Assembly: GCF_004360225.1 (NCBI RefSeq)
Contig: NZ_SNUA01000020.1
Coordinates: forward strand, 1-64,000
Direction of reading: 5' to 3'
DNA length: 64,000 nt
Source of the DNA: Alcanivorax sp. 24
Lineage (GTDB): Bacteria > Pseudomonadota > Gammaproteobacteria > Pseudomonadales > Alcanivoracaceae
Below are positions 47,181 to 63,349 of this stretch, one piece after another (within the stretch, counting starts at the first letter, position 1; every line of letters begins with the position of its first letter). Position numbers and translations under genes: made by a program. A model generated the notes under the pieces. It had not been told where the DNA came from and ran no database searches. It saw nothing but the letters and a program-made list of their open reading frames with translations.

Positions 47181-47214
47181 GTTAATGGAATGATGTTAGT
47201 ATTGTTCCATTAAC
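47181..47214. promoter_or_regulatory. Perfect inverted repeat, candidate operator of the TetR gene
   Basis: GTTAATGGAA (47181-47190) and TTCCATTAAC (47205-47214) are perfect 10-bp arms with a 14-base spacer. The repeat ends 20 bases before the TetR start codon and overlaps the likely promoter. This is the normal position for autoregulation by a TetR protein. No second copy was found by eye near the TRAP genes. Confidence 0.65.
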
Positions 47215-47234: not shown

Positions 47235-48011
47235 ATGGCGGCAGCAAGGAAACCCACGCGTCGTAAAAAGAGCAAGGCGGAAGAGATTTCCGGAACCAAG
47301 TTGGAGTTGACGCTGGCGGCGGAGAAGGTTTTCGCCATGAATGGGGTGCAGGGGGCGTCCCTGCGTCAGATTCGTGAGGAGGCCGGACAAAAGAACGAAT
47401 CGGCGATTCACTATTACTTTGGTTCCCGGGAAGCGATCATCGAGTCCATTCTGGCGATGCGCTCCAAACCGATAGACGCGGACCGCCATGCCATGTTCGA
47501 GGAGGCCCGCCGGCAGGCGGGTGGCAAGCCTCTGTCCACGGAACAGATTATGCGCTGCGGGATGATGCCCCTGGCCCGTTATCTGTTTGGTACACAGGAG
47601 CCCGGATATTACCTGCGTTTTTTGGTGCAATTGCGTATGGAGCGCGGTACCTGGCTGCACTTCAACGCGATGTACGGTGCGGGCATGGAAAAGTGTCTGG
47701 AAGCGCTGCGGGAGGCAAAACCGTATTTGCCCAAGGCGATTATCGAGCAGCGTTTCCTCAGTATGTTGTTCATGCACACCAACGGGATGGCGACGATCGA
47801 GCGGATTCAGTCGGAAAAAGGTCAGAGTTTCCGTCGTGAAGAGGCCTGGATTCGAGTCGAGGATATTATTGGTTGCAGCGTTGCCATGTACGACGCGCCG
47901 TTATCGCCGGAGACGCTGGAAGCGATTCATCAGGCGTCCACGTTGTATGACCTGCCCTCCTATACGGAAACCTCCATACTCAAGAGCGCCGGCACCGGCG
48001 GCGGCGAATGA
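47235..48011 (+). CDS. TetR/AcrR-family transcriptional regulator
   Basis: A 258-residue regulator. A basic N-terminal arm (RKPTRRKKSKAEE) precedes the helix-turn-helix: TLAAEKVFAMNGVQGASLRQIREEAGQKNESAIHYYFGSREAIIESIL. The rest is an alpha-helical ligand-binding domain. Its position next to the alkylsulfatase-like gene, and the palindrome in its own promoter, suggest it controls itself and perhaps the TRAP/CoA cluster that follows. Its ligand could be a CoA ester or the imported substrate; this is inference. Confidence 0.92.
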   Translation: MAAARKPTRRKKSKAEEISGTKLELTLAAEKVFAMNGVQGASLRQIREEAGQKNESAIHYYFGSREAIIESILAMRSKPIDADRHAMFEEARRQAGGKPLSTEQIMRCGMMPLARYLFGTQEPGYYLRFLVQLRMERGTWLHFNAMYGAGMEKCLEALREAKPYLPKAIIEQRFLSMLFMHTNGMATIERIQSEKGQSFRREEAWIRVEDIIGCSVAMYDAPLSPETLEAIHQASTLYDLPSYTETSILKSAGTGGGE

Positions 48012-48033
48012 TGCCGCCGGTGCCGGCGTCTCC

Positions 48034-49350
48034 TCAACCAATGCCAACCCGGCGGCCGGGATAACCCGGGTCACCGTCATCACCCAGCGCTTTCAACGAG
48101 GCGTTGGCGGCGTCGGTGAAAATGCCTCTGGCCATTAATGAGGTTTCGGCTTTGGCCCGCGCCTGGTTCACCGCTACGCGCACCCGGTGAGCTTCCTGAT
48201 TGCCGGGCTCCGCGCTGATCGCCATTTCGCTGAGGTGTCCGGCCAGGCGTAAGTCGCCTTGCTCCAGATACCCGCTGGCGGCCTGTGCCAGAATGGTCGC
48301 GCCGCCGCACAGTTCCGCCAGGGCGCTGCTCAGCGCATCAGGGTGTGCCGGTTTCAACTGGGCGGGATTGCCGTCGTACCAGCCACCGTACAACCGCCAG
48401 ACATTTCGGATCAGAAACTCAGGGTCATCGTAAGAGGGGTGCAGGTAGGGCCGGTCAAGCAAGCCTTCAGGCAGCGTTACCTGTTGCACGATGTCCGCCA
48501 GGGGCAACCCCTGATTCATGCCCGCCAAGGTTTGGTCATGGATGGTTTCCAGGAAAGTGGCGGTGTCGTCCAGCAGGGTGGCGACGCGGTCGGCACCAAA
48601 CACCGCCGGCCCGTGGCCGGGCACCAATACTTCCGGTTTCTTCCGGGCCATGGCCCGCAGCGCCTCCGCCCATTGCAAGGCGAAGCGCTGGACCTTCTGC
48701 GGGTTACCGGCATTGGGGGCCGCCCAGATAATGAAGTCCCCGGTGATAACGGTGCGGTCCTCCGCGATCCAGCTCCAGGTATGGTCGTCGGTTTCGCCCA
48801 TGCCGTGATTGAGTTCCACCTGACTGTCACCGCACTGCAGAATCATCTGTTCTTCATAGAAGCGGTCGGGATAACGGTATTCAGCGGGCCAGTGGAATCC
48901 GGCGACTTTGAATTGCCGGCTATTGATATGAGCGTTCCAGTTGGCGCTGGCCTGATAGCGTTGGAAGCGCCGGCGAATATTCGCCTGGCCGATAACTTCC
49001 GGTTTCGGATCGCCGGCCTGTTGTGCTTCCTGATCGAACAGGGGGGTGCCGAAGGCGTGGTCAAGATGGCCATGGGTATAGATGACGTGCCGGATCGGCT
49101 GATCCGACCAGGAACGAATAGCCTGATGAATATTGGCGGCGGTATTGCGGCTGCCACTGTCGAATACCACCAGACCTTCCCCGGTGCTGAGCACGGTGAC
49201 ATTGCCCACCACGCCTTTGGAAGCGATGTAGACCAGATGGTCGTTGATCGGTATGACCTGGCTGCCATGCAGGTGGCGATTCCAGTCACGGCCGAAATCA
49301 AACCGCTCCCAACAGGCGTCGCCAATAGCTCTGAGTTCTTCGTTGATCAT
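48034..49350 (-). CDS. Metallo-beta-lactamase-fold alkylsulfatase-like hydrolase
   Basis: A 438-residue MBL-fold protein with an alkyl-sulfatase-type helical dimerisation domain. The metal motif is complete: THGHLDH with His93, His95, Asp97, His98; GETDDH with Glu186 and His190; Asp205 in VITGDF; and His246 in VPGHGP. From about 290 on (DDPEFLIRNVWRLYGGWYDGNPAQLKPAHP) it matches the domain of SdsA1-type alkylsulfatases. Unlike the secreted SdsA1, it has no signal peptide, and it is shorter. It could hydrolyse a sulfate ester or another ester intracellularly. RBS GGAGGAG. It is convergent with the TetR gene and divergent from the TRAP operon. Confidence 0.88.
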   Translation of the reverse strand: MINEELRAIGDACWERFDFGRDWNRHLHGSQVIPINDHLVYIASKGVVGNVTVLSTGEGLVVFDSGSRNTAANIHQAIRSWSDQPIRHVIYTHGHLDHAFGTPLFDQEAQQAGDPKPEVIGQANIRRRFQRYQASANWNAHINSRQFKVAGFHWPAEYRYPDRFYEEQMILQCGDSQVELNHGMGETDDHTWSWIAEDRTVITGDFIIWAAPNAGNPQKVQRFALQWAEALRAMARKKPEVLVPGHGPAVFGADRVATLLDDTATFLETIHDQTLAGMNQGLPLADIVQQVTLPEGLLDRPYLHPSYDDPEFLIRNVWRLYGGWYDGNPAQLKPAHPDALSSALAELCGGATILAQAASGYLEQGDLRLAGHLSEMAISAEPGNQEAHRVRVAVNQARAKAETSLMARGIFTDAANASLKALGDDGDPGYPGRRVGIG

Positions 49351-49399
49351 TCAGGGTCTCCTCCGAGGGTGAGAATCAGGAACAGAGTGTTACCTAAAG

Positions 49400-49415
49400 T
49401 AATGTCATGACATTA
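49400..49415. promoter_or_regulatory. Perfect 16-bp palindrome upstream of the alkylsulfatase-like gene
   Basis: TAATGTCATGACATTA is a perfect palindrome 50 bases from the start codon of the MBL gene. It has the size and symmetry of an operator for a dimeric HTH regulator. It differs from the inverted repeat in front of the TetR gene, so another regulator or a second binding mode may be involved. Confidence 0.5.
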
Positions 49416-49700
49416 GAAAAGATAGGTGAAATTCATGTTGTGGCATTACTTATGCTCAAATCCGCCTCTCTTGCGAGGAAAGAGGGGTGGGCATTCCGGG
49501 TTGCCGGATAGGCATGTTGAGTGTCGACAGGTGTGTTCAACGATGTCCGGTTTAAGATAAAAAATACTTTTATAACAATGTCTTGTAATTTGAGGACGGC
49601 AAAATTCCGTGTCTTGAACGAATGTTCACTTCCGCCGGGGATAATGAGGCATGCCAATGAATAAATTGTCACTGAGGTGAGGGAGGTTGCAGTAATCTAA

Positions 49701-49730
49701 TTGACAGACATTAATTCGGCATGATCTGAT
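49701..49730 (+). promoter_or_regulatory. Candidate sigma-70 promoter of the TRAP operon
   Basis: TTGACA (49701-49706) and TCTGAT (49725-49730) are 18 bases apart. Transcription would begin near 49737, just inside the longest possible reading frame, which favours the later GTG start (49781) for the TRAP permease. Confidence 0.4.
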
Positions 49731-49732
49731 GA

Positions 49733-51685
49733 GTGCACAAAAAAACCAAGGCGGACTTCGATGTCCGCGGGAGAGGGAGAGTGCTCACAGATTCAAGCCG
49801 CCGGCTTGGCCTGGCGATTGCCGTGGTGCTGGCCGCCATCAGTATTTATACGTCTCTTTTCGGGATCTTTGATCCCAGCTATCAGCGTCCATTGACGTTC
49901 GCTGCCTGTATTCTTGTCGCCGTACTGGTCAAGCCTCTGGTGATGGTGAATCCGCCGCGCACCGCATCATTCCGCGCTCTGTTCTGGCTCATCGATCTGG
50001 TGCTGGTCGGCGCCATCCTGTTGGCCGTCGGCCGCTTCCTCGTCTTCGCCGGCGATATGGAAAACATGTTGGTCGACTATAGCCGCACGGATCAACTGAT
50101 CGCGCTGGCTGGTGTGGTGGCGGTTATCGAGCTGACCCGCAGGGAGTTTGGCCTCGGACTGTCCCTGTTCGCCGGCGTGACATTGCTGTATTGCCTGTGG
50201 GGAGATCTGTTGCCCGACGTCGTTCGCCATGCTGGGTTCTCTCTGGACCAGATCATGCAGGGCATGTGGTACGGCTTCAGTGGCGTATTCGGTACGCCGG
50301 TAGCGGTGATGATCGAGTTGTTGTTCATCTACATTATCTTCGGCGTCATGCTTGAAGCCACCGGCGCCGGCCCGGCTCTGGTCCGCATGTCGATTCGCGT
50401 CACCGGCCGTCTGCCGGGTGGGCCGGCTCACGCCGCGATCTTCGCCAGCATGCTGTTTGGCACTATGTCGGGCAGTGTTACCGCCAACGTGGCGGGGACC
50501 GGTGCCTTCACTATTCCCATGATCAAGAAGCGCGGCTTCAGCCCCGCTTTCGCCGGTGCCGTTGAAGCCGCCGCATCCACCGGGGGGCAGGTGATTCCTC
50601 CGGTGATGGGAGCAGCCGCATTCATGATGGCGCAACTGACCGGCACCCCCTATCTGTTGATCTGCGTGGCGGCATTATTGCCGGCGGCTTTTTATGTGAT
50701 CGCGCTGTTCGCGGCGGTCTACTACGAGGCTCGGCGGCTTGGCATCAAGCCTACCCCCGAGCATGAACTGCCAGTGCTGACCAAAGATGACTGGTTGCGC
50801 TCGCTGATGTTCGTGGCACCGGTGTTAACGGTGATCCTGGTCCTGGCCACCGGCCGTTCACCGGCCATGGCCGGGGTATGGGCGACGCTGGTGGCAATGG
50901 CCTTTGGTTTCCTCAATCCTGAAATTCGCCGTCGGCCCTGGGCGCTGATCGGTGCTCTGGCAAAAGGCGGAGTGGCAGGATCGCGCATCATGATCGCGGT
51001 GGGGGCTATTGGTATTGTCATTGCCGGTATGGATCTGACCGGTCTGGGATTGAGTTTCGCGCAAGCCGTTGCCGGCCTCGGCGAGCACAGTTTGCTGTTG
51101 AGTCTGGTGTTAACCGCGTTGGGTTGTCTGATTCTGGGCATGGGCATGCCGACCCTGCCCGCCTATCTGATCATTGTGTTGGTCATGGGGCCGGCCCTGA
51201 CCAGCTTCGATGTGCCGTTGCTTTCCGTGCACCTGTTTGTCCTCTACTTCGGTGTGCTGTCCGCCATTACTCCGCCGGTGGCGTTGGCGGCTTTCGCCGC
51301 GGCGCCATTGGCCGAGGCTAACCCGATGAAAGTGGCGATGCTCTCCGTGCGTCTGACTCTGGTCGGGTTTCTGGTGCCCTTCCTGTTCGTGTTCAACCCA
51401 TCGCTACTGTTGATCGTGGAGGGCTTCGATCCAATGGATCTGGCCTGGGGGGTGGTGCGCCTGACTCTGGTGGTATGGGCAGTGACCACGGGATTCGCGG
51501 GGTTTGGCGGCGAGCGGTTGAGCATGTTGGCACGGGTTCTGAGGCTGGCGGTGGCGGCGCTGCTGATGGCGCGCGGCACCTCGGTGGAGCTGGTCGGCCT
51601 GGCCCTGGCGCTACTGATCCTGCTGTTTGATTTCATGCCGCACCACAGGCCGCGTTGGCTTGGTTGTGCGCCGGCGGACAAGTGA
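49733..51685 (+). CDS. TRAP transporter fused permease (DctQM-type, TAXI class)
   Basis: A 650-residue inner-membrane protein with about 16-18 hydrophobic segments. The N-terminal ~180 residues form the DctQ-like part, and the remainder the DctM-like transport core: FASMLFGTMSGSVTANVAGTGAFTIPMIKKRGF, EAAASTGGQVIPPVMGAAAFMMA and GMGMPTLPAYLIIV. It imports an organic acid captured by a TAXI binding protein, driven by an ion gradient. The start is uncertain: GTG 49733 has no RBS, whereas GTG 49781 follows GAGAGGGAGA and suits the promoter. It heads the run of catabolic genes. Confidence 0.93.
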   Translation: MHKKTKADFDVRGRGRVLTDSSRRLGLAIAVVLAAISIYTSLFGIFDPSYQRPLTFAACILVAVLVKPLVMVNPPRTASFRALFWLIDLVLVGAILLAVGRFLVFAGDMENMLVDYSRTDQLIALAGVVAVIELTRREFGLGLSLFAGVTLLYCLWGDLLPDVVRHAGFSLDQIMQGMWYGFSGVFGTPVAVMIELLFIYIIFGVMLEATGAGPALVRMSIRVTGRLPGGPAHAAIFASMLFGTMSGSVTANVAGTGAFTIPMIKKRGFSPAFAGAVEAAASTGGQVIPPVMGAAAFMMAQLTGTPYLLICVAALLPAAFYVIALFAAVYYEARRLGIKPTPEHELPVLTKDDWLRSLMFVAPVLTVILVLATGRSPAMAGVWATLVAMAFGFLNPEIRRRPWALIGALAKGGVAGSRIMIAVGAIGIVIAGMDLTGLGLSFAQAVAGLGEHSLLLSLVLTALGCLILGMGMPTLPAYLIIVLVMGPALTSFDVPLLSVHLFVLYFGVLSAITPPVALAAFAAAPLAEANPMKVAMLSVRLTLVGFLVPFLFVFNPSLLLIVEGFDPMDLAWGVVRLTLVVWAVTTGFAGFGGERLSMLARVLRLAVAALLMARGTSVELVGLALALLILLFDFMPHHRPRWLGCAPADK

Positions 51686-51762
51686 ACGCCGGAATAAAAA
51701 ACGAAAAAAGGCCGGGAGGCCTGGCAGTAAGAGGCTCGCACGAGCCCCAAAAGGAGAATGGA

Positions 51763-52794
51763 ATGTTTGGACTGAAAACGATTAAGTGGGTGGTCTGTGT
51801 GATGACCGTCGCTTTGGCGCTGGGGCAGGTCGCGCAGGCGCAAGAAACTCATCTGCGAATGCAGACCGCCACTCCCGGATCGGGATACTACGTTTTTTCC
51901 GTGACCTTGCAGTCGGTTCTGCAGAAGAAACTGCCGGTGAAGATCAACATGACAGCCGGTGTCACAGGCCCTCGTTCGCCACTGGACGCGGCACGGGGCC
52001 AGACCGACCTTTTTATCAGCAGTCCGTCCATCAATCATTTCATGCGAACCGGTACGGGGATGTTCGCCAAAATGGAGGCGGCACCGGAGTTGTACCAGAA
52101 CGTCAGGCAGATCATGACGTTCCCGGCTGGCCCCTATCATATCGTGGTGCATGAAAAGTCCGGCATTCGTTCCCTCGAGGACATCAAAGGGCGTCGTATC
52201 TTTCTCGGCGCGCCGGGTGGCGCGGCTACTCTGGTGGCCATCTCCATTGTCGAAGGCGCCACCGGCTATGAGGCCGGCACGGACTATGAGCTGGCAAAAC
52301 TGGATTGGAACTCTGGTCTGCAGGCTTTCCAGGATGGACATGTGGACATGTTGGTAATGCCAACGCAGCTACCGTCCGCTTCGATGGAGCAGATGACATT
52401 GCTTGAGAAAGTCCGTTTCCTGGGGATTCCCGATGACGCGTTCGAATCCGACCAGATGAAGAAAATCATGGCCCTTCCCGGGCGGACCCGGGCCACCATC
52501 CCCGCCGGTATTTACGGTGCAAATCAAACCAACGAGACGGACGTAAGAACCATCGGTTCCTGGGCTGGCCTGGGTACCCGCAAGGATCTGGATGAAGAGC
52601 TGGTGTACCAGATCACCAAAACCTTGTTCGAGAACCTGTCTGCTTTCCATGGCGCCGCGAAGTTCATGGAAGAGATCACCCTGGAGAATGCTCTGACGGA
52701 GATGAGAACCCCGTTGCACGCCGGCGCGGTTCGTTATTACCGGGAGGCCGGCGTTGACCTTCCGGATCACTTGATTCCACCGGAGGCGCGTTAA
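51763..52794 (+). CDS. TAXI-family TRAP solute-binding protein 1
   Basis: A 343-residue periplasmic binding protein. The signal peptide (about 1-26, ending AQAQ) is followed by the TAXI-type fold: LRMQTATPGSGYYVFSVTLQSVLQKKLPVKINMT, GQTDLFISSPSINHFM, and the HEKSGIRSLEDIKGRRIFLGAPGGAATL segment. It delivers the ligand to the fused TRAP permease encoded 77 bases upstream. TAXI proteins studied so far bind carboxylates such as glutamate or 2-oxoglutarate; the ligand here is open. RBS AAAGGAG. Its stop overlaps the next start by one base (TAATG). Confidence 0.93.
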   Translation: MFGLKTIKWVVCVMTVALALGQVAQAQETHLRMQTATPGSGYYVFSVTLQSVLQKKLPVKINMTAGVTGPRSPLDAARGQTDLFISSPSINHFMRTGTGMFAKMEAAPELYQNVRQIMTFPAGPYHIVVHEKSGIRSLEDIKGRRIFLGAPGGAATLVAISIVEGATGYEAGTDYELAKLDWNSGLQAFQDGHVDMLVMPTQLPSASMEQMTLLEKVRFLGIPDDAFESDQMKKIMALPGRTRATIPAGIYGANQTNETDVRTIGSWAGLGTRKDLDEELVYQITKTLFENLSAFHGAAKFMEEITLENALTEMRTPLHAGAVRYYREAGVDLPDHLIPPEAR

Positions 52795-54899
52795 TGAGCG
52801 CAGTATCAGAACACACTATCGAAGATCTGGATCGTCTGTTCCGGCCCCGCTCCGTGGCGGTCATTGGTGCCAGCGCCACGCCGACGAAAATCGGCGGCCT
52901 GCCGATCGCGTTCCTGCTTGCCCAAGGCTTCCAAGGGCCAATCTTTCCGATCAACCCGAAGGCCTCTGAAGTGCAGGGGCTCAAAGCCTACACCCGCATC
53001 GGCGAGGTAGCGGGACAAGTGGACCTGGCTATCGTCGCGGTGCCGGCCGCGCTGGTCGATCAAGCCGTGGATGACGCCATCGCCGCGGACGTCAAGGGTA
53101 TTGTGCTGTTTTCATCCGGTTTCGCGGAGATCAGTGAGGAAGGGCGTCTGGCACAGGATGCGCTGATGGCCCGCGCCCGCGCGGCCGGTGTCCGTATTCT
53201 CGGGCCCAACTGTCTTGGTTTCATGAACCTTTCCGAAAAAGTGTTTGCGACTTTCTCGCCGGTGGTGGGACAAGGCGTGACGCCGAAAGGGCGCATTGGC
53301 CTGATCAGCCAGAGCGGTGCCTATGGTGCCTATGCGTTTACGCTGGCGCGGCAGCGTGGTCTGGGGCTGAGCTACTGGATCACCACGGGCAACGAAGGCA
53401 ACGTGGATTTCGCCGATTGTCTGAGCTGGCTGGCGCGGGATCCGGACACCGATGTGATCCTCGGTTACATGGAAGGCTGCCGTGATGGCCGCAAGCTGGA
53501 AGCCGCTCTGGCCGCCGCCCGCGCCGCCGGCAAGCCGGTGGTGATGACCAAAGTCGGTCGCACCGATATCGGCGCCCAGGCCGCTGCGTCTCATACCGCC
53601 GCGCTGGCCGGCGAGGACGCGGTCTTTGATGCGGTATTCCGCCAGTACGGCGTGTATCGCGCCTATTCCATCGAGGAATTTTTCGATGTGGGTTATGCCT
53701 TTTCCGTGGCGGGCATCCCGTCCGGAGAAAACCTCGGTGTGTTTACTGTGTCTGGCGGTGCTGGTGTGTTGATGGCGGATGCCGCCGCTGATGAAGGACT
53801 GGCGCTGCCGGAGCTTAATCAACAGGCCCAGGACCGCATCCGGGAGTTGGTTCCGTTCGCCGCACCGCGCAATCCGGTGGACATCACCGGACAGATCACC
53901 AACGACATCGGTCTGTTCGAGACCAGCCTCGACATCATGCTCGAGCAGGGTGATTACCACCTGGTCGCCGCTTTTCTGGCCGCCGCCGGTCAGGGGCCCA
54001 TGGGCGAGCACATCGCCGAGCAGATCGGCCGTGTACGTGAGCGTTATCCGGATCGCGTGTTCTGCGCGGTATCGGTGTTCAAGGAGCCGGTGCGTACCTT
54101 GCTGGAGTGTAATCGCTGTCTCGCCTTCGAGGACCCCACTCGTGCCATTCGTGCGCTGTCCGCCCTGGCCTGGTTTGCCCGGCAACGGCAAAAACCAGCG
54201 GTGCCGGTGGCGTCGCGCGGCGCCGGCGTAACGTTGCGCACTGGCAGTTATTCGGAGGCGGACAGCTTCCAACTGCTGGCTGACTTCGGAGTGCCGGTGC
54301 CGGAGTCCCATCTGGTCGCCGACGGTGCCGAGGCCCGGGCCCGGGTGGCGCAAGACTCTCGCGCCTGGGTGGCGAAGATCGCGTCCCCCGACATTCCGCA
54401 CAAATCCGACATTGGCGGTGTACGGCTGAACCTGCGTGGTGCCGAGGCTGTTGGCCAGGCCAGTGATGAGGTGCTCGCCGCGGCCCGCCGCGCCTGCCCG
54501 GAGGCGCGCGTCGATGGCGTGCTGCTCTCGCCAATGGAAGAACAGGGCGTTGAATGCATCGTCGGTGTGCAGAGGGATCCTGCCTTTGGCCCAGTGGTGA
54601 TGCTGGGATTGGGTGGCGTATTGGTGGAGGTGCTCAAGGACGTCAGCTTCCGCAGCGCGCCACTGAACCGGGATATGGCCATGGACATGATCAACGAGCT
54701 GCGCGGCAGAGCGATTCTTGACGGTGTCCGCGGGCAGCCGCCGGCGGACATCGGTGCCCTGGCCGATCTGCTGGTGAAAGTGTCGCACTTCGCCGTGGCC
54801 GCCGGGGACAGTCTGGAAAGTCTGGACATCAATCCGGTGCGCGTGCGCGCCGGGGGGCAGGGCGTGGTGGCATTGGATGCCCTGGTCATCGGGCGCTGA
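52794..54899 (+). CDS. ADP-forming acyl-CoA synthetase (acetate-CoA ligase type)
   Basis: A 701-residue fused ADP-forming acyl-CoA synthetase, which makes an acyl-CoA from acid, CoA and ATP through a phosphohistidine. A CoA-binding domain (RPRSVAVIGASATPTKIGG, ~18-35) is followed by two succinyl-CoA-ligase-like domains with His267 in SHTAALAGEDAVFDA. The C-terminal ATP-grasp domain (~470-701; VPESHLVADGAEARA, KIASPDIPHKSDIGGVRLNL) completes it. The substrate is unknown; its place between two TRAP binding proteins suggests it activates the imported acid. It is translationally coupled to binding protein 1. Confidence 0.92.
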   Translation: MSAVSEHTIEDLDRLFRPRSVAVIGASATPTKIGGLPIAFLLAQGFQGPIFPINPKASEVQGLKAYTRIGEVAGQVDLAIVAVPAALVDQAVDDAIAADVKGIVLFSSGFAEISEEGRLAQDALMARARAAGVRILGPNCLGFMNLSEKVFATFSPVVGQGVTPKGRIGLISQSGAYGAYAFTLARQRGLGLSYWITTGNEGNVDFADCLSWLARDPDTDVILGYMEGCRDGRKLEAALAAARAAGKPVVMTKVGRTDIGAQAAASHTAALAGEDAVFDAVFRQYGVYRAYSIEEFFDVGYAFSVAGIPSGENLGVFTVSGGAGVLMADAAADEGLALPELNQQAQDRIRELVPFAAPRNPVDITGQITNDIGLFETSLDIMLEQGDYHLVAAFLAAAGQGPMGEHIAEQIGRVRERYPDRVFCAVSVFKEPVRTLLECNRCLAFEDPTRAIRALSALAWFARQRQKPAVPVASRGAGVTLRTGSYSEADSFQLLADFGVPVPESHLVADGAEARARVAQDSRAWVAKIASPDIPHKSDIGGVRLNLRGAEAVGQASDEVLAAARRACPEARVDGVLLSPMEEQGVECIVGVQRDPAFGPVVMLGLGGVLVEVLKDVSFRSAPLNRDMAMDMINELRGRAILDGVRGQPPADIGALADLLVKVSHFAVAAGDSLESLDINPVRVRAGGQGVVALDALVIGR

Positions 54900-54957
54900 T
54901 ATCGGGCGCCCCGGAATCAAGCAATAGCCAGATAAAACAACAAATCGGGAGATTGGA

Positions 54958-55992: not shown

Positions 55993-56109
55993 CGGGTGGT
56001 GGAAAAGGCACACCGGCGAAACGACCTGGGTGTTACCCCAAGACCTTGGCACCGGCATTGAGCGCGGGTGCCCGGGGGCATCCTTTGAAGAAGAGAAAGA
56101 GGAACTAAC

Positions 56110-57390
56110 ATGAGTAATGAATTTGCTTCGGTGTCTCCCGCTGAACTGAAGTCCGCCGCCAAGCGCGCGTACATTTACACGGTTCCACTGGTGATCATGG
56201 AGACCACCCGTAAATGGCGCATGGGCGCCGGGGCCAACGTCTTCAATCATGCACGCAAGTTGTTGACGCACCGCAGCCGCTGGGTGACCACGCCGAACAA
56301 TGACACCCTGTACTCCGATGCCTGGCTGGATCTGTCAAAAGGGCCGGTAAAGATCACCGTGCCGGCCACTGGCGAGCGCTATTTTTCGCTGGCCTTCATG
56401 GACATGTACACCAACAACTTCGACATTCTCGGCACTCGTACCACGGGGAATAACGGCGGTGTTTATACCGTGGTTGGTCCGCATCAGGCGGTGCCGGAGG
56501 ATGCCACCAATGTGGTCCGTGCACCGACGCCAAGAGTCTGGGCGCTGGCGCGTATTCTGGTGGACGGCCCCGACGACCTGCCGGCGGCCTGCGCCGTGCA
56601 GGATGGATTGTTCGTCCATGAAGGGGCGGATCCTGAAGACGTGGCACCGGGTGATCCGGTACAGCGCTCCGCCAGCTGGCGTGAGTATCTGGCCACCGCC
56701 AATCGCTTGTTGCGCCGCGAACCGCCGCCGGTCACCGACGGCCTGATTCTGGAACAGATTCGTGCCCTGAATATCGGCCCGGATCAGGTGTTCGACGCGG
56801 ATGCGTTCGATCAGGAGCAGGCGGAAGCGATTGAACGGGGCGTGGAGGAGGCCAGGAACTGGCTGGTCCAGATTCAGCGTGCGCGCCGCAGCGCCATTGA
56901 CGGCTGGACCTATCCCAGCATGCGCAATGGTGATTATGGTCAGAACTACACCCTGCGAGCGGTGGTGTCGGTGGGTGGTCTGGGTGCCTTGCCGTTGGAA
57001 GAAGCGATCTATATGCGTGCCGAAGGGGATGCCGAAGAAGGTCTGTTCGACGGCAACCAGAACTACCGGCTGCATTTCCCCGCTGGCGCCATGCCGCCGT
57101 TGAATTCGTTCTGGTCCCTGACACTTTACGAAGCCATGGACGACGGGCAGTTCTTCTTCGCCGATACCCCGTTGCGCCGTTACGCCGTGGGGGATCGCAG
57201 TCCCGGTCTGCAGTACAACGAGGACGGATCCCTGGATCTCTGGATCGGTGCACGCAGTCCCGGCGCGGATCGCGAGAGCAACTGGTTGCCCGCCAACGAG
57301 GGGCCCTTCGCCCTGTTTTTCCGAGGTTATATGCCTAAGGCTGATCTGATGGAAGGCCGTTACAGGCTGCCGCGCGTCGAGCGTCTGTAA
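56110..57390 (+). CDS. DUF1254/DUF1214 domain protein
   Basis: A 426-residue protein with an N-terminal DUF1254 domain (AAKRAYIYTVPLVIMETTRKWR, TTPNNDTLYSDAWLDLSKGPVKITVPATGERYFSLAFMDMYTNNFD) and a C-terminal DUF1214 domain (GNQNYRLHFPAGAMPPLNSFWSLTLYEAMDDGQFFF, then RSPGADRESNWLPA). The pair is common in bacteria, and no enzymatic role is established. Many relatives are exported, but no signal peptide is visible here. RBS GAGGAAC. Its place inside the TRAP/CoA cluster suggests a role in processing the imported compound. Confidence 0.9.
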   Translation: MSNEFASVSPAELKSAAKRAYIYTVPLVIMETTRKWRMGAGANVFNHARKLLTHRSRWVTTPNNDTLYSDAWLDLSKGPVKITVPATGERYFSLAFMDMYTNNFDILGTRTTGNNGGVYTVVGPHQAVPEDATNVVRAPTPRVWALARILVDGPDDLPAACAVQDGLFVHEGADPEDVAPGDPVQRSASWREYLATANRLLRREPPPVTDGLILEQIRALNIGPDQVFDADAFDQEQAEAIERGVEEARNWLVQIQRARRSAIDGWTYPSMRNGDYGQNYTLRAVVSVGGLGALPLEEAIYMRAEGDAEEGLFDGNQNYRLHFPAGAMPPLNSFWSLTLYEAMDDGQFFFADTPLRRYAVGDRSPGLQYNEDGSLDLWIGARSPGADRESNWLPANEGPFALFFRGYMPKADLMEGRYRLPRVERL

Positions 57391-57489
57391 ACACGGAATC
57401 ACCCGTTTTCCCTTCTTTCCAACGGCACCACCGGTGGCCGTTACGGGCGCCCCTGTGCCCGCCACCGGTGACAAAGCAGGAGCTATGTC

Positions 57490-58737
57490 ATGACAGGCAA
57501 CAGCAACAAGCAGGAATCGCCGATCCTTGGCGAATTCCTGCTCGCCAACAAGGACCTCAAGACCATCGCCCCGGGTGTCCATCTGCTCGGAGGGCAGGGC
57601 AACAGTGTGGTGGTGGAAACCGACAACGGCGTGGTAATCACTGACTCCGGTCCGGGCGGCAAGATCACCCGGGCAATGATCGAACACATTCGCCAACTGA
57701 CCGATAAACCGGTGCTGGCCATCGTCTACAGCCACGGCCATTTGGGTTACAACCACGGTGCCCACAGCTGGCTGGCGGACGCCGCCGAGCGCGGTCATCC
57801 GCGCCCGAAAATAGTGGCTCAGGCCAACCTGCCGCGTCGCTATGACCGCTACCAGGAGACATGGGGATTGCAGGCGCATCTCAACGGGCTGCAGTTCAAT
57901 TCCCAATTCCCGGAAAGCGCGCCGGAAAAATGGTTCGCCTATCCGGATGTCACCTTCCGTGAACGCTATGTTATCGAGGGTGGGGATCGTCAGGTGGAGA
58001 TACTGGAAGCGCCTTCGGAAACCGATGACGCCATGGCGTTGTGGTTGCCGGAGGAGAAGATCCTTTATGCCGGCCCGGCCTTCATCAAATCCATTCCCAA
58101 TATCGGCACGCCTTTGCGCACGCTGCGTGATCCGGTGCGCTGGGCGGAAACCATGGAAAAGCTGTTGGGGCTGGAGCCGGAAATGCTGATTCCTGAATTC
58201 GGCAAGCCGATTGAAGGCCGGGAAGCCGTTCGTGAAGCCATGACTCTGACCATCAAGGCCCTGCGTTATCTGCGTGAGGAAACGGTGAAGCGGATGAATC
58301 GCGGTATGACCGAGGCGGAGATTCTGCATGACATGGTCTACCCGGAAGAGATCTTTGGTCATCCGTTGATGAAGCCCAGCTACGGCATGCCGGAGTACAT
58401 CGTGCGCGATATCTGGCGTTCGGAGAACGGCTGGTGGGACCGCAATGCCACGCAGCTGCATCCGGGGCCGCCGGATGCGGTGACGGCCGCGCTACGCGAG
58501 GCCATCAGTGATCCCGAAAAGGTATTGGGGGTGGCACGGCGAAAGCGGGAGGAAGGCCAGCCGCAACTGGCTTTGCATGTGCTGGATCTGCTTTCCCCTG
58601 AAAGCAGCCAGGACCGGATCGGAGCCAGTGCCCGTGCCCTGAAGGCGGAAATTCTGGAGCAACTGGCGGAGGCCTCTCCGTCTTTTGTCTCCGCGCAAAT
58701 CTATCGTTCGGTGGCGGCACGACTGAACGAGAGATAA
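57490..58737 (+). CDS. MBL-fold alkylsulfatase-like protein with degenerate metal site
   Basis: A 415-residue paralogue of the MBL protein at 48034-49350, with the same MBL core and alkylsulfatase dimerisation domain (MPEYIVRDIWRSENGWWDRNATQLHPGPPDAV). The metal motif HGHLDH has become HGHLGY (His82, His84, Gly86, Tyr87). The later ligands are also changed: His to Ala181 (SETDDAM), Asp to Pro196 (YAGPAF) and His to Phe237 (IPEFGK). It cannot bind two metals in the usual way, so it may be a regulatory or structural partner, or use a different chemistry. RBS AGGAG. It lies between the DUF1254 gene and the porin gene. Confidence 0.85.
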   Translation: MTGNSNKQESPILGEFLLANKDLKTIAPGVHLLGGQGNSVVVETDNGVVITDSGPGGKITRAMIEHIRQLTDKPVLAIVYSHGHLGYNHGAHSWLADAAERGHPRPKIVAQANLPRRYDRYQETWGLQAHLNGLQFNSQFPESAPEKWFAYPDVTFRERYVIEGGDRQVEILEAPSETDDAMALWLPEEKILYAGPAFIKSIPNIGTPLRTLRDPVRWAETMEKLLGLEPEMLIPEFGKPIEGREAVREAMTLTIKALRYLREETVKRMNRGMTEAEILHDMVYPEEIFGHPLMKPSYGMPEYIVRDIWRSENGWWDRNATQLHPGPPDAVTAALREAISDPEKVLGVARRKREEGQPQLALHVLDLLSPESSQDRIGASARALKAEILEQLAEASPSFVSAQIYRSVAARLNER

Positions 58738-58790
58738 CCCCGGGTTATGACCCGTATCAATTAGATAAAAAAAAATTCGAGGAGAAGCTA

Positions 58791-59927
58791 ATGAAAACCC
58801 GTCCTCTTTTGACCGCGGCAGGCTCCGGTCTGCTGATGGCTTTGCTGCCACTGTCCGTCCAGGCCGCGGATATTCAGGTTCTGGAAGATGTTATTCACCC
58901 GGAACAGGCGATTAAGAAGAAGATGGAACTGTATGGGGCGCTGCGCATGTCGGTGGACTATGTGGACTCCGATGTCACGGATGCGCAGGCGGACACCTCG
59001 CCCTTGCTTTCCGATGGTGGGATCGGTGTTTCCAGTAATACCACGATGATAGGTTTTCGGGGAGAAGTCCCTTACAGCGAGGATTTTAAGTTCCTGTGGC
59101 AATACGAACAGCAGGTTGACATGGATGATACCGACGGTAATGACGTCTGGACCACCCGTGACAGCTTTCTTGGCCTGGGTACACCTATCGGTACTTTCCT
59201 GGTGGGACGTATCAACACGCCTTTCAAGAACATGGGTGTGTCGTATCTCGGCTACTTCAATACCACGGTGGCTGATACCCACGCCATTCTTGGCGCGCCC
59301 TCGGCAGGTGCTGGTGGACGGCTGGATTTGTTTGGCTCCAACAGCTTGAACTGGAAGTTCCGTCTGGCCGGTGTCAACGTCGCTCTGCAGTACGCGGCGG
59401 ATCAGGCTGGTTCAGTCAATAGTGCTGACGATAATGATCGTGACAGTTCAAGTATCTGGCTGGATTGGAAGCGAGGCGGGCTGCAATTGAGCAGTGCCTA
59501 TATTCATTATTCCGATTTCGCCACTACCGGCAGCCTGGATGCCTGGCGGGTTTTCGCCAAGTATAAATTTTCTGTTTTCACCCTTGGTGCCATTTACGAG
59601 GACATCAGTCCGGACAATTTTGCCTCCCTCGACCGCGAGGCCTATGGGTTGCAGGCTCTGTATACGGTGGCGCCGCGCTGGAACCTGGCGGCGCAATGGA
59701 ACCACGCGGAAGAATCGGAAGTGGGTGACGATGAAGCCGACCAGTACAGCGTTGGTGTATTCCATTCCCTTAGTGACTCGGTATTGCTGCATGCCATGTA
59801 CACGGTGACGCAAAACGGCGACAACGCCGCCTATCGTGGCGTTGATTATGCCCATGGCGACAAAGTGGGCACGCTGGCCGGTAATGACCCGTGGGCCCTG
59901 TCGGTCGGTGCCCAGCTGAAGTTCTGA
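58791..59927 (+). CDS. Outer-membrane porin (Gram-negative general porin type)
   Basis: A 378-residue outer-membrane beta-barrel. The signal peptide (about 1-25, ending SVQAA) is followed by barrel strands: MELYGALRMSVDYVD, NTTMIGFRGEVPYSEDFKFLWQYEQQVD and DSFLGLGTPIGTFLVGRINTPFKNMG, typical of porin_4/OmpC-like trimeric porins. It ends in LKF, with the terminal Phe needed for outer-membrane assembly. An acidic external loop (NSADDNDRDSSS) is visible. RBS GAGGAG. A terminator follows 153 bases downstream. It probably admits the TRAP substrate into the periplasm. Confidence 0.92.
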   Translation: MKTRPLLTAAGSGLLMALLPLSVQAADIQVLEDVIHPEQAIKKKMELYGALRMSVDYVDSDVTDAQADTSPLLSDGGIGVSSNTTMIGFRGEVPYSEDFKFLWQYEQQVDMDDTDGNDVWTTRDSFLGLGTPIGTFLVGRINTPFKNMGVSYLGYFNTTVADTHAILGAPSAGAGGRLDLFGSNSLNWKFRLAGVNVALQYAADQAGSVNSADDNDRDSSSIWLDWKRGGLQLSSAYIHYSDFATTGSLDAWRVFAKYKFSVFTLGAIYEDISPDNFASLDREAYGLQALYTVAPRWNLAAQWNHAEESEVGDDEADQYSVGVFHSLSDSVLLHAMYTVTQNGDNAAYRGVDYAHGDKVGTLAGNDPWALSVGAQLKF

Positions 59928-60079
59928 ATGCCGTTGTCCACTGGATACGGTGTGTTCTCCGGACATCCTCCACGTTGTCCGGGCGGTGTCGAGACTCTCC
60001 GGGGCGAATGCTCTCCCCATCGCCGGAGTGGTGTCGAATGTAGTGTCGATGATGACGCCGCCTGCCGTGTCCTTTTTCG

Positions 60080-60105
60080 CGCCGGCCGATGGCCGGCGTT
60101 TTTTT
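60080..60105 (+). terminator. Rho-independent terminator after the porin gene
   Basis: CGCCGGCC (60080-60087) and GGCCGGCG (60091-60098) form an 8-bp GC stem with a 3-base loop, followed by TTTTTTT (60099-60105). It ends the TRAP-to-porin transcript and separates it from the dehydrogenase genes. Confidence 0.9.
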
Positions 60106-60171
60106 ATGACCACTGCCCGTGGCGGTCACCCTTCGGGCCATCGCGGAGCGACGTTCAAAATTACCGGGAGC
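60106..60171 (-). repeat. Dispersed ~65-bp palindromic repeat, copy C (inverted)
   Basis: ATGACCACTGCCCGTGGCGG through GCGACGTTCAAAATTACCGGG is the reverse complement of copies A (5281-5346) and B (5705-5771), with scattered changes. In copy A, as in copy C, a GGCGTTTTTTT stretch stands next to the repeat, so the terminator-like T-run may belong to the family. Confidence 0.7.
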
Positions 60172-60250
60172 AATTTTTTAATTCTCCAGGGCAGATGGGA
60201 GCAGTTCAGTGGCCCTGAAACCAGTAAACCATCAACAGGAGTGTTTGAAG

Positions 60251-61444
60251 ATGACGGATCTGAGCCGATCGGAGGAAATCCGGTTCCGACAGGAGATTCG
60301 CGAGTTCGTGGTCAGTGAAGTGCCGGAGTCCATTCGCCTGAAAGTGGCGCAGGGCAGGGACGTCAGCCGTGACGAGACGATTGCCTGGCAACGCAAGCTG
60401 GTTGCCCGGGGCTGGGGGGCGGTGCATTGGCCGAAGCGATGGGGTGGTACCGACTGGAGTCTGCAAAAGCGATTTGTCTTTGAGGAGGAAATGGCACTGG
60501 CTGGCGCGCCATCCATACCGCCTTTCAATACCCGCATGCTGGGGCCGATCCTGTTGGAATACGGTACCGAGGAGCAGAAGGCGCGTTTTCTGCCCGGTGC
60601 TCTGAACATGGATCAATGGTGGTGTCAGGGCTATTCGGAACCTTCCGCCGGGTCGGATCTGGCGGCACTGCGGACCCGGGCGGTTCGTGAAGGGGATTAC
60701 TACCACGTCAACGGCGGCAAGATCTGGACCAGCTATGCCCACTACGCCGACTGGATGTTCTGCCTGGTTCGCACCGATCCCGAAGCCAAGAAGCAGAAAG
60801 GTATTTCCTTCCTGCTGCTGGATATGCGCAGCGAAGGGGTCAGTGTCGAGCCGATTCATCATTTCTATGGCGCGCACTTGCTCAATCAGGTGTTGCTCGA
60901 AGATGTAAAAGTGCCAGTGGAGCAACGTATCGGCGAGGAGAACACCGGGTGGACCACGGCGAAAGCGCTGCTGGAACACGAGCGGCTGGCCACCTCCCGC
61001 CACGCCGAGGCACGGCGCAAACTGGGCCGTCTTCTGGTGCTGGCGAAAACCAACAGGGACGCGTCGGGAGCGCTTTATCAAAGGGCTGATCTCAAAGCGC
61101 GCATCGCCGAGGTGGCGGTACAGGTGAAGGCTCTGGAATTCGCCACCCGCCGCGGGTTGGAGATGCTGATTCGCGATGGCCGCATCGGGGTCTTCGCCTC
61201 ATCGCTCAATCTCAAGGGCGTGGCCATCAATCAGGCAGTGGATGAGGCGATCATGGACATCGCCGGCGTCGATGCGCTTGCCGCCGATGCCGCCTATGAC
61301 GGCTTGCCCGGGGACCTGTTGAATGATGGCGGTGATGCCCGCTATGTGGCGGAGTCCCGCTACTACCTGCGAGGGCCGGCCATCGCCGCCGGCTCCAATG
61401 AAGTGCAGCGCAATATCATCGCCAAGCACGTGCTTGATCTGTGA
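60251..61444 (+). CDS. Acyl-CoA dehydrogenase (subunit 1)
   Basis: A 397-residue FAD-dependent acyl-CoA dehydrogenase. The flavin/substrate segment is WCQGYSEPSAGSDLAALRTRA, followed by GKIWTSYAHYADWMFCLVRT. The C-terminal helix RGPAIAAGSNEVQRNIIAKHVL is typical. It introduces a double bond next to the thioester carbonyl. ATG 60251 has AGGAG 9 bases upstream; a GTG 14 codons earlier is unlikely. The next gene, a second dehydrogenase lacking the SEP-SAGSD signature, starts 9 bases after this stop, which suggests a heteromeric enzyme. Confidence 0.93.
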   Translation: MTDLSRSEEIRFRQEIREFVVSEVPESIRLKVAQGRDVSRDETIAWQRKLVARGWGAVHWPKRWGGTDWSLQKRFVFEEEMALAGAPSIPPFNTRMLGPILLEYGTEEQKARFLPGALNMDQWWCQGYSEPSAGSDLAALRTRAVREGDYYHVNGGKIWTSYAHYADWMFCLVRTDPEAKKQKGISFLLLDMRSEGVSVEPIHHFYGAHLLNQVLLEDVKVPVEQRIGEENTGWTTAKALLEHERLATSRHAEARRKLGRLLVLAKTNRDASGALYQRADLKARIAEVAVQVKALEFATRRGLEMLIRDGRIGVFASSLNLKGVAINQAVDEAIMDIAGVDALAADAAYDGLPGDLLNDGGDARYVAESRYYLRGPAIAAGSNEVQRNIIAKHVLDL

Positions 61445-61452
61445 GGTATCCC

Positions 61453-62562
61453 ATGGAGTTTATGTTGACCGAAGAGCAGCAACTCATCGAAGACACGGTG
61501 GCCCGGTTGCTGGACAAACAATGGGACCCGCGCCGGGACCAGGCGCTGTTGTCCGCCGACGTGGCCCGTATGCCCTTGTGGCGTGAGCTGGCCGAGTTGG
61601 GTCTGTTGGGGATCGCGTTGCCCGAGGAGCACGGCGGTGGCGGCATGGGTCCGGTGGAGCTGACGGTGTTGTGCCGTCGCTTTGGCCGGGACCAACTGCG
61701 CTCGCCTTTTCTCTCGTCGTTGATTCTGGCCGGCACCGCGTTGACGTTCTCGCCGCGGGGAGCCTTGCGGGATCAATGGCTGCGACAGTTGGCCGCCGGC
61801 GAGGCAACTCTGACACTGGCCACATTGGAGGATCGGGCCGGGTATGACCACCATCACACGGCAATAGAGGGGCAGCGATACCAGTCGGGCTATATGTTGA
61901 ATGGCCGAAAAAGAGCGGTGATGGATGCCGCTGGTGCCGACGCGTTCATCGTCTCCTGCCGGTTGGATGGTGAGCTCGCGCTGGTGCTGCTGGCGCCGGA
62001 GACGGAGGGAATGGCGGTGGCGTCTTACGCGGCCTTTGACGGCAGCAGCCTGGCGACGCTCACCTTTAATGACGCTTTGTTACCGGAAGAAGTGGTGTTG
62101 GCCCGCGGGGCGGAGGCGCGGGCGGCGCTGGAAGCGGCGCTGGCGCAGGGTGCCCTGGCCGCGGCGGCGGAAACTCTGGGCGCGTGCGAAGGCGCCCTGG
62201 AACGTACTCTGGACTATCTGCGATTACGCGAACAGTTCGGAACCAAACTAGCCCGCTTTCAGGCTTTGCAACATCGTGCCAGCGATCTGCATGCGGATCT
62301 GGAAATGCTGCGCTCGCTGGTGTCCGGTGCGGCACAAAGCCTGCTCCACGAACCGGCCCATGCCGACGCCTTCGCGGCAATGGCGCTGGCGGTACCGGTG
62401 GGTGACCGTGTATGCAGGGAGGCGATTCAGATGCACGGTGGCATCGGCATGACCCTGGAGTTGGGGATCGGACGTTATCTGTTGCGCGTGAACGCATTGA
62501 GCCGGCTGCTCGGTGACGCCACGCATAACGGGCAGCTTTATCTCGAACGTATGGAGGCCTGA
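61453..62562 (+). CDS. Acyl-CoA dehydrogenase (subunit 2, atypical)
   Basis: A 369-residue protein with the acyl-CoA dehydrogenase fold: MLTEEQQLIEDTVARLL, LGLLGIALPEEHGGGGMGPVE and the late motif REAIQMHGGIGMTLELGIGRYL. The middle segment that normally contacts flavin and CoA (SEP-x-x-GSD) is replaced by LATLEDRAGYDHHH. Such short partners occur in alpha/beta-type dehydrogenases for bulky acyl groups, such as FadE pairs in steroid or cyclic-acid degradation. ATG 61453 has GAGG upstream. It is co-transcribed with its neighbours. Confidence 0.9.
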   Translation: MEFMLTEEQQLIEDTVARLLDKQWDPRRDQALLSADVARMPLWRELAELGLLGIALPEEHGGGGMGPVELTVLCRRFGRDQLRSPFLSSLILAGTALTFSPRGALRDQWLRQLAAGEATLTLATLEDRAGYDHHHTAIEGQRYQSGYMLNGRKRAVMDAAGADAFIVSCRLDGELALVLLAPETEGMAVASYAAFDGSSLATLTFNDALLPEEVVLARGAEARAALEAALAQGALAAAAETLGACEGALERTLDYLRLREQFGTKLARFQALQHRASDLHADLEMLRSLVSGAAQSLLHEPAHADAFAAMALAVPVGDRVCREAIQMHGGIGMTLELGIGRYLLRVNALSRLLGDATHNGQLYLERMEA

Positions 62563-62566
62563 GACA

Positions 62567-63349
62567 ATGACGGAACAAGCGGTATTGATGGAAATCCAGG
62601 AGGCGGTAGCGGTGGTCACTATCAACGCCTACGCCATGCGAAACTCCATGGGCGCGCCCGGGGTGCGTGAAGGGCTGCTGGAGGCCTTGGAGCACTTTGA
62701 AAATGATGATGACCTGCGTGTCATGGTATTGACCGGAGCGGGCGGTGTGTTCTCCGCTGGCGGCAATCTGGATGCGTTGCGCCGTATTCGTGACGTGGAA
62801 AAAATCCGCCAGCGTCTGGAAGCGGGCGGCCCTTTGCTGCAACGCATCTTGACGTCGGAAAAGCTGTACATAGCAGCGGTGGAAGGTCCCGCTTTCGGTG
62901 CCGGTCTGGGGCTGGCCGCCTGTTGTGATTTGATGGTGGCCGCGGAGGGGGCCCGCTTTTGTGCCGCGCAAATCCGTGTCGGCGCGGCGCCGGATGGCGC
63001 CCTTTGGTGGGCACTGCCTTTTCGCGTTGGCGCTGGTCGGGCGCGGAGGATTCTGCTCACCGGTGAGGAAGTGTCACTGGAAGAGGCCCTTCATATCGGT
63101 CTTGCTGACGTGCGCACGGAGCAGGGTGGGGCTCTGGAAACCGCGCTGAAACACGCCCGCCGTCTCGCCGCCGGACCGCCGTTGGCTCAGGCCACGATCA
63201 AGAGGCTGTTCACCGCGTTGCCGGCGGATCTGGTGGAGCGTTTGCGGGTGGAGCGGGAAACCGCCGCGGAGACGTTCGCCTCCGAGGACTTCGTCGAAGG
63301 CGCCAGCGCCTTTCTGGAAAAACGCCGCGCCCACTTTAAAGGATGCTGA
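62567..63349 (+). CDS. Enoyl-CoA hydratase/isomerase family protein
   Basis: A 260-residue crotonase-fold enzyme. The oxyanion-hole motifs are FSAGGNLDAL and EGPAFGAGLGLAACCDLMVAA. The region for the two catalytic Glu of hydratases reads QIRVGAAPDGALWWALP, with an Asp and no obvious Glu pair, so an isomerase, hydrolase or lyase activity is as likely as hydration. ATG 62567 follows GGAGGCCTGAGACA and lies 5 bases after the previous stop. It is the last gene of the dehydrogenase operon. Confidence 0.9.
   Translation: MTEQAVLMEIQEAVAVVTINAYAMRNSMGAPGVREGLLEALEHFENDDDLRVMVLTGAGGVFSAGGNLDALRRIRDVEKIRQRLEAGGPLLQRILTSEKLYIAAVEGPAFGAGLGLAACCDLMVAAEGARFCAAQIRVGAAPDGALWWALPFRVGAGRARRILLTGEEVSLEEALHIGLADVRTEQGGALETALKHARRLAAGPPLAQATIKRLFTALPADLVERLRVERETAAETFASEDFVEGASAFLEKRRAHFKGC

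Follow-up and report, generated by a model that had tools for sequence, protein, structure and literature searches.

Which substrate, and which chemistry, does a twelve-gene block in the genome of Alcanivorax sp. 24 serve? The block lies at 47,235–63,349 of the DNA analyzed here (the window: 64,000 nucleotides of contig NZ_SNUA01000020.1). An earlier note, made from the sequence alone, had read it as an island that takes up a carboxylic acid and degrades it as a coenzyme A (CoA) thioester. All twelve genes named there are present, and a profile search of the window proteins returned the families given for them: a TetR-family regulator, two metallo-beta-lactamase (MBL) proteins that also carry an Alkyl_sulf_dimr domain (MBL1 and MBL2), a fused TRAP permease, two TAXI solute-binding proteins, an ADP-forming acyl-CoA synthetase, a protein with DUF1254 and DUF1214 domains, a porin, two acyl-CoA dehydrogenases (acad1 and acad2), and a crotonase (ech). 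The finding is real and goes further, in that the block is a portable cassette, contains a recurrent core, and carries conserved operator-like sites (Table 1). We put the odds at about even (roughly 50%) that it is a regulated catabolic cassette for an organosulfate-derived acid. Its enzymes are of known kinds except for MBL2, which belongs to a clade for which our literature searches returned no description.

A portable cassette and its recurring core

The host belongs with Alloalcanivorax. A family-wide search of 46 genomes recovered MBL2 orthologues, 72–95% identical, from 7 of the 13 genomes of the host genus, counting the host itself; the 33 genomes of other genera yielded none as similar. 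In a class sample of 369 genomes, the host alone matched at E <= 1e-55. The order TetR, TRAP, TAXI/synthetase, DUF1254, MBL2, porin, acad1, acad2, crotonase is kept in all seven genomes with MBL2, so the genes are not scattered among relatives, an outcome that the earlier note had named as one that would speak against it. MBL1 was not found in two of the seven cassettes (L035 and L036), and a single TAXI gene was found in two (L036 and L037), preceding the synthetase gene in L037. To the left of tetR, comparison of 2.5 kb (of 1.8 kb in L032) separates the genomes into four groups whose sequences bear no similarity to one another; to the right, where the stretch is short in several genomes (282 bases in L033), common sequence is confined to the window, L032, and L034. 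Because the tetR-to-crotonase stretch is colinear in 7 of the 13 genomes of the genus within at least four different surroundings, it is a unit, a portable cassette.

To follow MBL2 beyond the genus, 79 loci were taken from a single pattern scan that fixes AIVYSHGH or SENGWWD and keeps the best 80 hits, with related species counted singly; relatives with an intermediate metal site may have been missed because of these fixed patterns and the limit to the best hits. The gene caller misses genes in high-GC loci, and the neighbor counts rest instead on a six-frame search with profiles of the cassette proteins, partly built from the same loci, at score thresholds of our own choosing. Controls were twenty 20-kb windows placed by hand, not at random, in four of these genomes. 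DUF1254 proteins were found at 48 of the 79 loci, the synthetase at 46 (both at 43), the porin at 42, and Bug solute-binding proteins at 51, compared with 0, 0, 0, and 3 of the 20 control windows. The remaining functions were less frequent, namely acad1 (21 loci), acad2 (18), the crotonase (24), and a type III CoA-transferase (15), with control counts of 0, 0, 1, and 1, respectively. An earlier tblastn count at the 79 loci gave 48 for the synthetase and 47 for DUF1254. The core that recurs beyond the genus is therefore the ADP-forming synthetase, DUF1254, and MBL2, accompanied by Bug proteins and a porin. The TAXI and fused TRAP profiles matched 5 of the 79 loci, all of them in Alloalcanivorax, with Bug proteins in their place at most of the others. 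A block conserved apart from its surroundings, as the earlier note had proposed, thus exists within the genus, whereas the order permease-TAXI-synthetase-TAXI-DUF1254-MBL that it named was seen only in Alloalcanivorax.

In Comamonas, Variovorax, and Delftia, a frequent order is porin, synthetase, Bug, DUF1254, DUF1254, MBL2, Bug. Four Cupriavidus loci (L102–L104 and L106) hold the cassette functions in another order, again with Bug in place of TAXI: the porin, Bug, acad2, acad1, crotonase, and CoA-transferase genes face MBL2, and DUF1254 and the synthetase lie beyond it. That these functions occur together in a second arrangement and with another kind of transporter argues for a common substrate of MBL2, DUF1254, and the synthetase. 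Among 18 genomes chosen for carrying MBL2, a hand count placed DUF1254 and alkylsulfatase-fold families within 15 kb of each other in 12, where 20,000 random placements gave a mean of 0.76 and a maximum of 5 of 18. A link between DUF1254 and alkylsulfatase-fold proteins in general was rejected from the unselected class sample. We also observed a second kind of pairing, in which DUF1254 lies ~2 kb from a different alkylsulfatase-fold protein (G414 contig 21 near 379–382 kb, L180; G269:C1 near 1.777–1.779 Mb); the L180 protein has the canonical HFHADH motif.

The cassette DUF1254 protein carries both Pfam domains of its family and matches the solved proteins VPA0106 and VPA0735 over most of its length (E 1.4e-21 and 2.7e-9). 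These two are solved but uncharacterized.

Operator-like sites and the sulfate question

The gap between MBL1 and the permease gene contains two 16-bp sites that fit TAAT[G/T]-N6-CATTA. Site A, as GTAATG-N6-CATTA, occurs at the cassette in all seven genomes with a different spacer in each; site B, TAATTGACAGNCATTA, has exactly one copy per genome in the same seven, always in the MBL1-permease gap, and the two are separated by 298 bp in five genomes, 297 in one, and 333 in one. At the tetR promoter, both half-sites are present, 20 bases apart, in six of the seven cassette genomes, and one is left in the seventh (L037). The perfect 16-bp palindrome in the window was set aside as a motif in its own right, being just one variant of a 5+6+5 dyad with varying spacer. 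The cassette is probably controlled by its own TetR, which we infer to read these TAATG-N6-CATTA-type sites as operators.

Genome-wide, the exact TAATG-N6-CATTA occurs at 14 places in the seven cassette genomes and nowhere in the six genomes of the genus that lack the cassette. Seven of these places are at the cassette, three precede a type I sulfatase gene remote from the cassette, two precede a SulP permease gene, and two, both in G023 (C12 and C44), fall inside open frames and were taken as chance. Type I sulfatases carry the modification motif C-x-[PA]-x-R; the remote gene encodes 757 residues with a PF00884 domain (212.1 bits) and the motif CSATR, and its best solved match is the arylsulfatase of P. 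aeruginosa (1hdh, E 1.8e-73), which has 536 residues and leaves the C-terminal part of the remote protein outside the match. In three of three orthologues, the host's among them, the exact site precedes the start codon, at distances of 28, 47, and 65 bases and with differing spacers (of the 44 sulfatase-family matches, the comparison took in the 30 that had loci). Other PF00884 genes are present in all 13 genomes of the genus.

A homologue of this sulfatase, 65% identical, was found in a Comamonadaceae genome (L085), where it lies between DUF1254-DUF1254-synthetase on one side and TetR-MBL2-Bug on the other. Within 10 kb are a second sulfatase gene, a formylglycine-generating-enzyme (FGE) gene, and a TauD-type dioxygenase gene, and the gap between TetR and the sulfatase contains two TAATTC-N4-GAATTA dyads in the same 16-bp TAAT...ATTA frame as the cassette sites, as seen by eye. 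Sulfatase-family genes lie near MBL2 in 5 of the 79 loci (L085, L094, L105, L108, and L115; L105 is weak, at 25% identity) and in none of the 20 control windows. The shared site, the L085 cluster, and this difference from the controls together support a sulfated substrate, one of the guesses in the earlier note, and a link of the cassette to organosulfates is the interpretation we favor. Given that the same site precedes a type I sulfatase gene in three genomes, including that of the host, the substrate is most likely an organosulfate-derived acid. Literature searches returned nothing on a substrate.

Several observations weigh against a single regulated organosulfate module. The sulfatase with the site was found in only 3 of the 7 cassette genomes, and the search of the 79 MBL2 neighborhoods came up without a sulfatase-family gene in 74; sulfate therefore cannot be essential to the module. 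Neither DUF1254 nor the synthetase was found at 28 of the 79 loci, some of them short. Among 24 other DUF1254 genomes in the unselected class sample, the alkylsulfatase-fold family PF14863 occurs in 6, and the two families lie ~2 kb apart in one (G269). The two 16-bp TAAT[G/T]-N6-CATTA sites in the window compare with 0.02 expected in shuffles, an expectation computed after the motif had been spotted by eye. There is no operator-like site at the acad1-acad2-ech unit, which follows a terminator-like element. Finally, a near-site (<=1 mismatch) precedes the SulP gene in each of the 7 cassette genomes, but so it does in 5 of the 6 that lack the cassette; another protein may therefore read the motif, and the case for counting the SulP permease in the regulon of the cassette is weakened. 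A TAAC/T...CATTA dyad upstream of the SulP gene is conserved across the genus (13 genomes, L248–L260), whether the cassette is present or absent.

One alternative takes the cassette to degrade a carboxylate, probably a dicarboxylate or another complex acid, that bears no sulfate ester, with the sulfatase sharing the site through a broader regulator. Besides the 4 of 7 cassette genomes in which the sulfatase with the site was not found and the 74 neighborhoods with none of its family, this account can draw on the best NCBIfam models of acad1 and acad2, which are pimeloyl-CoA dehydrogenase subunits (under cut-off), on the Cupriavidus CoA-transferase, which is nearest to succinate-glutarate CoA-transferase (259.2 bits, under the cut-off of 750), and on the several di- and tricarboxylates among known TAXI and Bug ligands (PMC5812351). 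It accommodates poorly the exact site retained before three of three sulfatase orthologues with diverged spacers, and the 65% identical sulfatase together with FGE and TauD genes inside one such cluster in another bacterial family. We regard it as possible rather than probable.

A second alternative assigns the sites not to the TetR of the island but to a genus-wide regulator, for example one of LysR type governing sulfur metabolism. LysR-type sites feature T-N11-A spacing, which the dyad contains, and the near-copy before the SulP gene is found in 12 of 13 genomes, five of which lack the cassette. The half-sites also found at the tetR promoter point instead to the TetR, as does a 16-bp TAAT-N8-ATTA dyad seen by eye before related TetR genes beside MBL2 in L085 and L061; in a third gap inspected by eye (L088), no such dyad was evident, and those of L052 and L110 were outside the comparison. 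We consider a genus-wide reader unlikely.

MBL1, MBL2, and a half-lost metal site

Our profile search found Lactamase_B and Alkyl_sulf_dimr as the only domains of MBL1 and MBL2, which are 31% identical to each other; both proteins end shortly afterwards, and an SCP-2 domain is absent from the results for either. By eye, their N-termini are unlike signal peptides. The closest solved structures, by sequence for both proteins and by fold for MBL2, are Pisa1, SdsA1, SdsAP, and YjcS, i.e., type III alkylsulfatases, with which both share the MBL and Alkyl_sulf_dimr domains. In alignments, MBL1 retains every ligand of the binuclear zinc site (HHDHEDH). MBL2 departs from the site pattern HxHxDH...E...E/D...H in keeping only two His and one Glu. 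For SdsAP, zinc 1 is described as bound by His192, His194, Glu303, and Glu322, and zinc 2 by Asp196, His197, His367, and Glu322 (PMC5426288). Aligned to SdsAP, MBL2 keeps the first three ligands and has Gly, Tyr, Phe, and Pro in place of Asp, His, His, and the bridging Glu. An earlier view that MBL2 had been stripped of every metal ligand was withdrawn, as the family alignment shows an HxH...E site kept.

This pattern is not peculiar to the host. Among 122 aligned sequences, near-copies included, 92 have the degenerate site, 30 the canonical one, and none anything between; within the 92, a single sequence has Arg for Gly, and the bridging position is Ala, Pro, Asn, Cys, or Ser. H82, H84, and E177 are invariant in a 63-sequence alignment. 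A quick tree of 67 rows, built with the seven site columns removed and with no bootstrap, sets the 53 degenerate rows kept by the thinning apart from the others across a branch with SH-aLRT 97; the checks that accompany this tree flag L115 as a long branch and point to long branches joined to one another within the canonical rows. The labels of the source records name Pseudomonadota, Myxococcota, Actinomycetota, Acidobacteriota, and Chloroflexota, and all records outside Pseudomonadota are titled metagenome bins. Because none of the aligned sequences is intermediate and the degenerate rows are set apart on the tree, the comparison indicates a coherent clade and not a decayed gene. On this comparison, MBL2 appears as a widespread but little-studied protein, related to sulfate-removing enzymes, in which half of the metal site has been lost; PMC7785958 mentions a clade near the alkylsulfatases, not further specified and of unknown function. 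An AlphaFold2 model of MBL2 from 63 sequences reached a pLDDT of 90.6 (an earlier one from 7 sequences, at 59.8, was not used), and the structure that Foldseek ranked first for it is Pisa1 (4av7, a double mutant), at a TM-score of 0.83 over the query; the metal site itself was judged from alignments only.

The earlier note had called MBL1 alkylsulfatase-like. A reading of both proteins as type III alkylsulfatases, which would free sulfate from the acid after its import, finds its support in the structural neighbors named above. The His of the Pisa1 M-H-N motif, presumably His317, which we take to be the residue that protonates the leaving sulfate, is matched by Pro in MBL1 and MBL2 alike in the alignments. 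Such a role for a histidine is described for a type III alkylsulfatase (PMC3920027), and a natural relative without the SCP-2 domain is described as having no activity on sodium dodecyl sulfate (PMC6107682). With neither SCP-2 nor that His in either protein, and with Gly-Tyr-Phe for Asp-His-His leaving MBL2 without one metal site, we do not retain the pair as plain alkylsulfatases and judge sulfate release by them to be highly improbable, even though MBL1 has all metal ligands.

MBL2 might instead be a pseudoenzyme that carries no metal and uses its dimerization domain to pair with MBL1 or a further MBL2-type protein, or to act as a scaffold for it. The replacement of Asp, His, His, and the bridging carboxylate in all 92 clade sequences is in keeping with this, as are the Alkyl_sulf_dimr domain and ten loci with two MBL2-type genes. 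Against it stand the invariance of H82, H84, and E177, the two of seven cassettes that keep MBL2 but in which MBL1 was not found, and the comparison of 80 MBL2 loci, 70 of which yielded only one MBL2-type gene. A pseudoenzyme is in our view conceivable, if short of probable. A tentative proposal, and one that we would call rather unlikely as it stands, is that MBL2 defines a so far undescribed enzyme family with the alkylsulfatase fold and a mononuclear metal site (two His and one Glu; zinc or iron), and that together with DUF1254 it performs a novel step by which acids derived from organosulfates are broken down.

In the ten loci mentioned (L045, L046, L047, L048, L049, L052, L060, L094, L108, and L119), the two MBL2-type genes differ and both are degenerate; the two proteins of one locus perhaps form a heterodimer. 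An alpha/beta hydrolase gene follows the pair in L047 and L119, and an IclR regulator gene is found in L048 and L119. The latter locus, on plasmid pBB2 of Cupriavidus necator N-1, has a plasmid-borne synthetase, three Bug genes, two MBL2-type genes, the alpha/beta hydrolase, and IclR. A third alkylsulfatase-fold protein in the host genome (G000:C1:399810-400994, L038; 574-aa frame) has a canonical metal site.

The proposed route and its gene layout

The families found bear out the uptake parts for both membranes and the CoA activation that the earlier note had read from the block. The permease and both TAXI proteins score above their cut-offs (TIGR02123; TIGR02122 at 163.8 and 137.7 bits, cut-off 84.35), giving a TAXI-TRAP system with a fused DctQM permease; the two TAXI proteins are 69% identical. 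TAXI-TRAP and Bug proteins have been tied to carboxylates (PMC5812351, PMC13040137). A fused DctQM permease, a TAXI protein, and a porin beside catabolic genes also mark the TAXI-TRAP uptake proposed, e.g., for o-phthalate (PMC6362003, PMC13040137), although the catabolic genes of the cassette make up a CoA-thioester route and not one of aromatic ring dioxygenation. The synthetase combines CoA-binding, Succ_CoA_lig, and ATP-grasp_5 domains in one chain, and its best solved match is 8wzu (E 6.9e-106).

The two dehydrogenases had been counted as two oxidation steps, a count that our comparison does not uphold. The best solved match of acad1 is chain A of 4x28, followed by the Tcur3483 chains of 6wy9/6wy8; for acad2, chain D of 4x28 is fourth best and Tcur3481 of 6wy8/6wy9 eleventh (all E <= 3e-25), the three best being by name not of the alpha2beta2 kind. 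The best NCBIfam models are the large (acad1, 349.6 bits) and small (acad2, 170.6 bits) subunits of pimeloyl-CoA dehydrogenase. A Glu of acad1 aligns with Glu at position 247 of ChsE4, which we take to be the catalytic residue. ChsE4-ChsE5 is described as an alpha2beta2 enzyme (PMC11153573, PMC6678751). The genes acad1 and acad2 are adjacent and match the two different subunit types, with the Glu in the alpha one; they score below the NCBIfam cut-offs for PimC and PimD. They look like two subunits of one alpha2beta2 enzyme, and since they match different subunits, one oxidation step is likelier than two.

In the route we propose, the porin and the TAXI-TRAP permease would bring in a carboxylate, and the ADP-forming synthetase would convert an acid to its CoA thioester; a single alpha2beta2 dehydrogenase would then introduce a double bond that the crotonase would hydrate, with general beta-oxidation completing the route. 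MBL2 and DUF1254 would carry out a cytosolic step, one we tie to the activation stage because no acad1 homologue occurs in the examined stretch of 33 of the 43 loci with MBL2, DUF1254, and synthetase. MBL2 may bind one metal ion through its two His and one Glu and act on the substrate as a hydrolase or lyase, and the separate type I sulfatase would remove the sulfate.

Table 1. Positions in the window of the cassette genes and of the associated sequence elements
Feature	Position	Strand	Remarks
Operator-like dyad at tetR promoter	47182..47213	.	TAATG and CATTA half-sites 20 bases apart; 10-nt perfect arms GTTAATGGAA/TTCCATTAAC in window
TetR-family regulator	47235..48011	+	TetR_N; TetR_C_30 under cut-off
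MBL1, alkylsulfatase-fold MBL	48034..49350	-	full binuclear ligand set HHDH-E-D-H; without SCP-2 domain
Operator-like site A	49400..49415	.	TAATG-N6-CATTA, 49 bp before MBL1 start
Operator-like site B	49698..49713	.	TAATTGACAGNCATTA, containing TTGACA of likely permease promoter
Fused DctQM-type TRAP permease	49733..51685	+	TIGR02123, 511.3 bits (cut-off 320.65)
TAXI solute-binding protein 1	51763..52794	+	TIGR02122; start codon is the one chosen
ADP-forming acyl-CoA synthetase	52794..54899	+	fused alpha-beta
TAXI solute-binding protein 2	54958..55992	+	TIGR02122
DUF1254 + DUF1214 protein	56110..57390	+	Pfam 150.5 and 107.4 bits
MBL2, alkylsulfatase-fold MBL	57490..58737	+	H82, H84, E177 kept; G86, Y87, P196, F237 at second metal site / bridging carboxylate positions
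Gram-negative porin	58791..59927	+	
Terminator-like stem-loop and T-run	60079..60099	+	3' of porin gene
acad1	60251..61444	+	catalytic (alpha) subunit type, PimC / ChsE4-like
acad2	61453..62562	+	beta subunit type, PimD / ChsE5-like
ech	62567..63349	+	crotonase-family enoyl-CoA hydratase/isomerase

With regard to layout, the orientation of MBL1 had to be amended: it lies between tetR and the permease gene on the minus strand, convergent to the former and divergent from the latter. At the position of the terminator-like element, a G+C-rich stretch ending in a T-run aligns by eye in the seven cassette genomes; acad1, acad2, and ech therefore probably form a second transcription unit (the scan for such elements as a whole gave 20 sites, compared with 15.4 in shuffles). 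The genes upstream of tetR encode a thiolase as well as FadB-like multifunctional and ferritin-like proteins. The thiolase and FadB-like pair is at 42070-45643, and among six relatives the FadB-like gene adjoins the cassette in L032 and L034 only. At 63700-64000, the DNA contains what appears by eye to be the start of an ECF-type (FecI-like) sigma factor gene, for which no search was made.

DUF1254 and DUF1214 are entries of unknown function in Pfam with sparse mention in the literature. Its link with one synthetase and with one MBL clade whose metal site is half lost places DUF1254 in a context that can be tested, and the operator-like sites offer a direct way to the inducer. Should MBL2 prove to be a mononuclear enzyme of the kind outlined above, the cassette would provide a first function for DUF1254 proteins; and if the organosulfate reading is true, the cassette would show how sulfated acids can be used by oil degraders in the sea and by Burkholderiales in soil.

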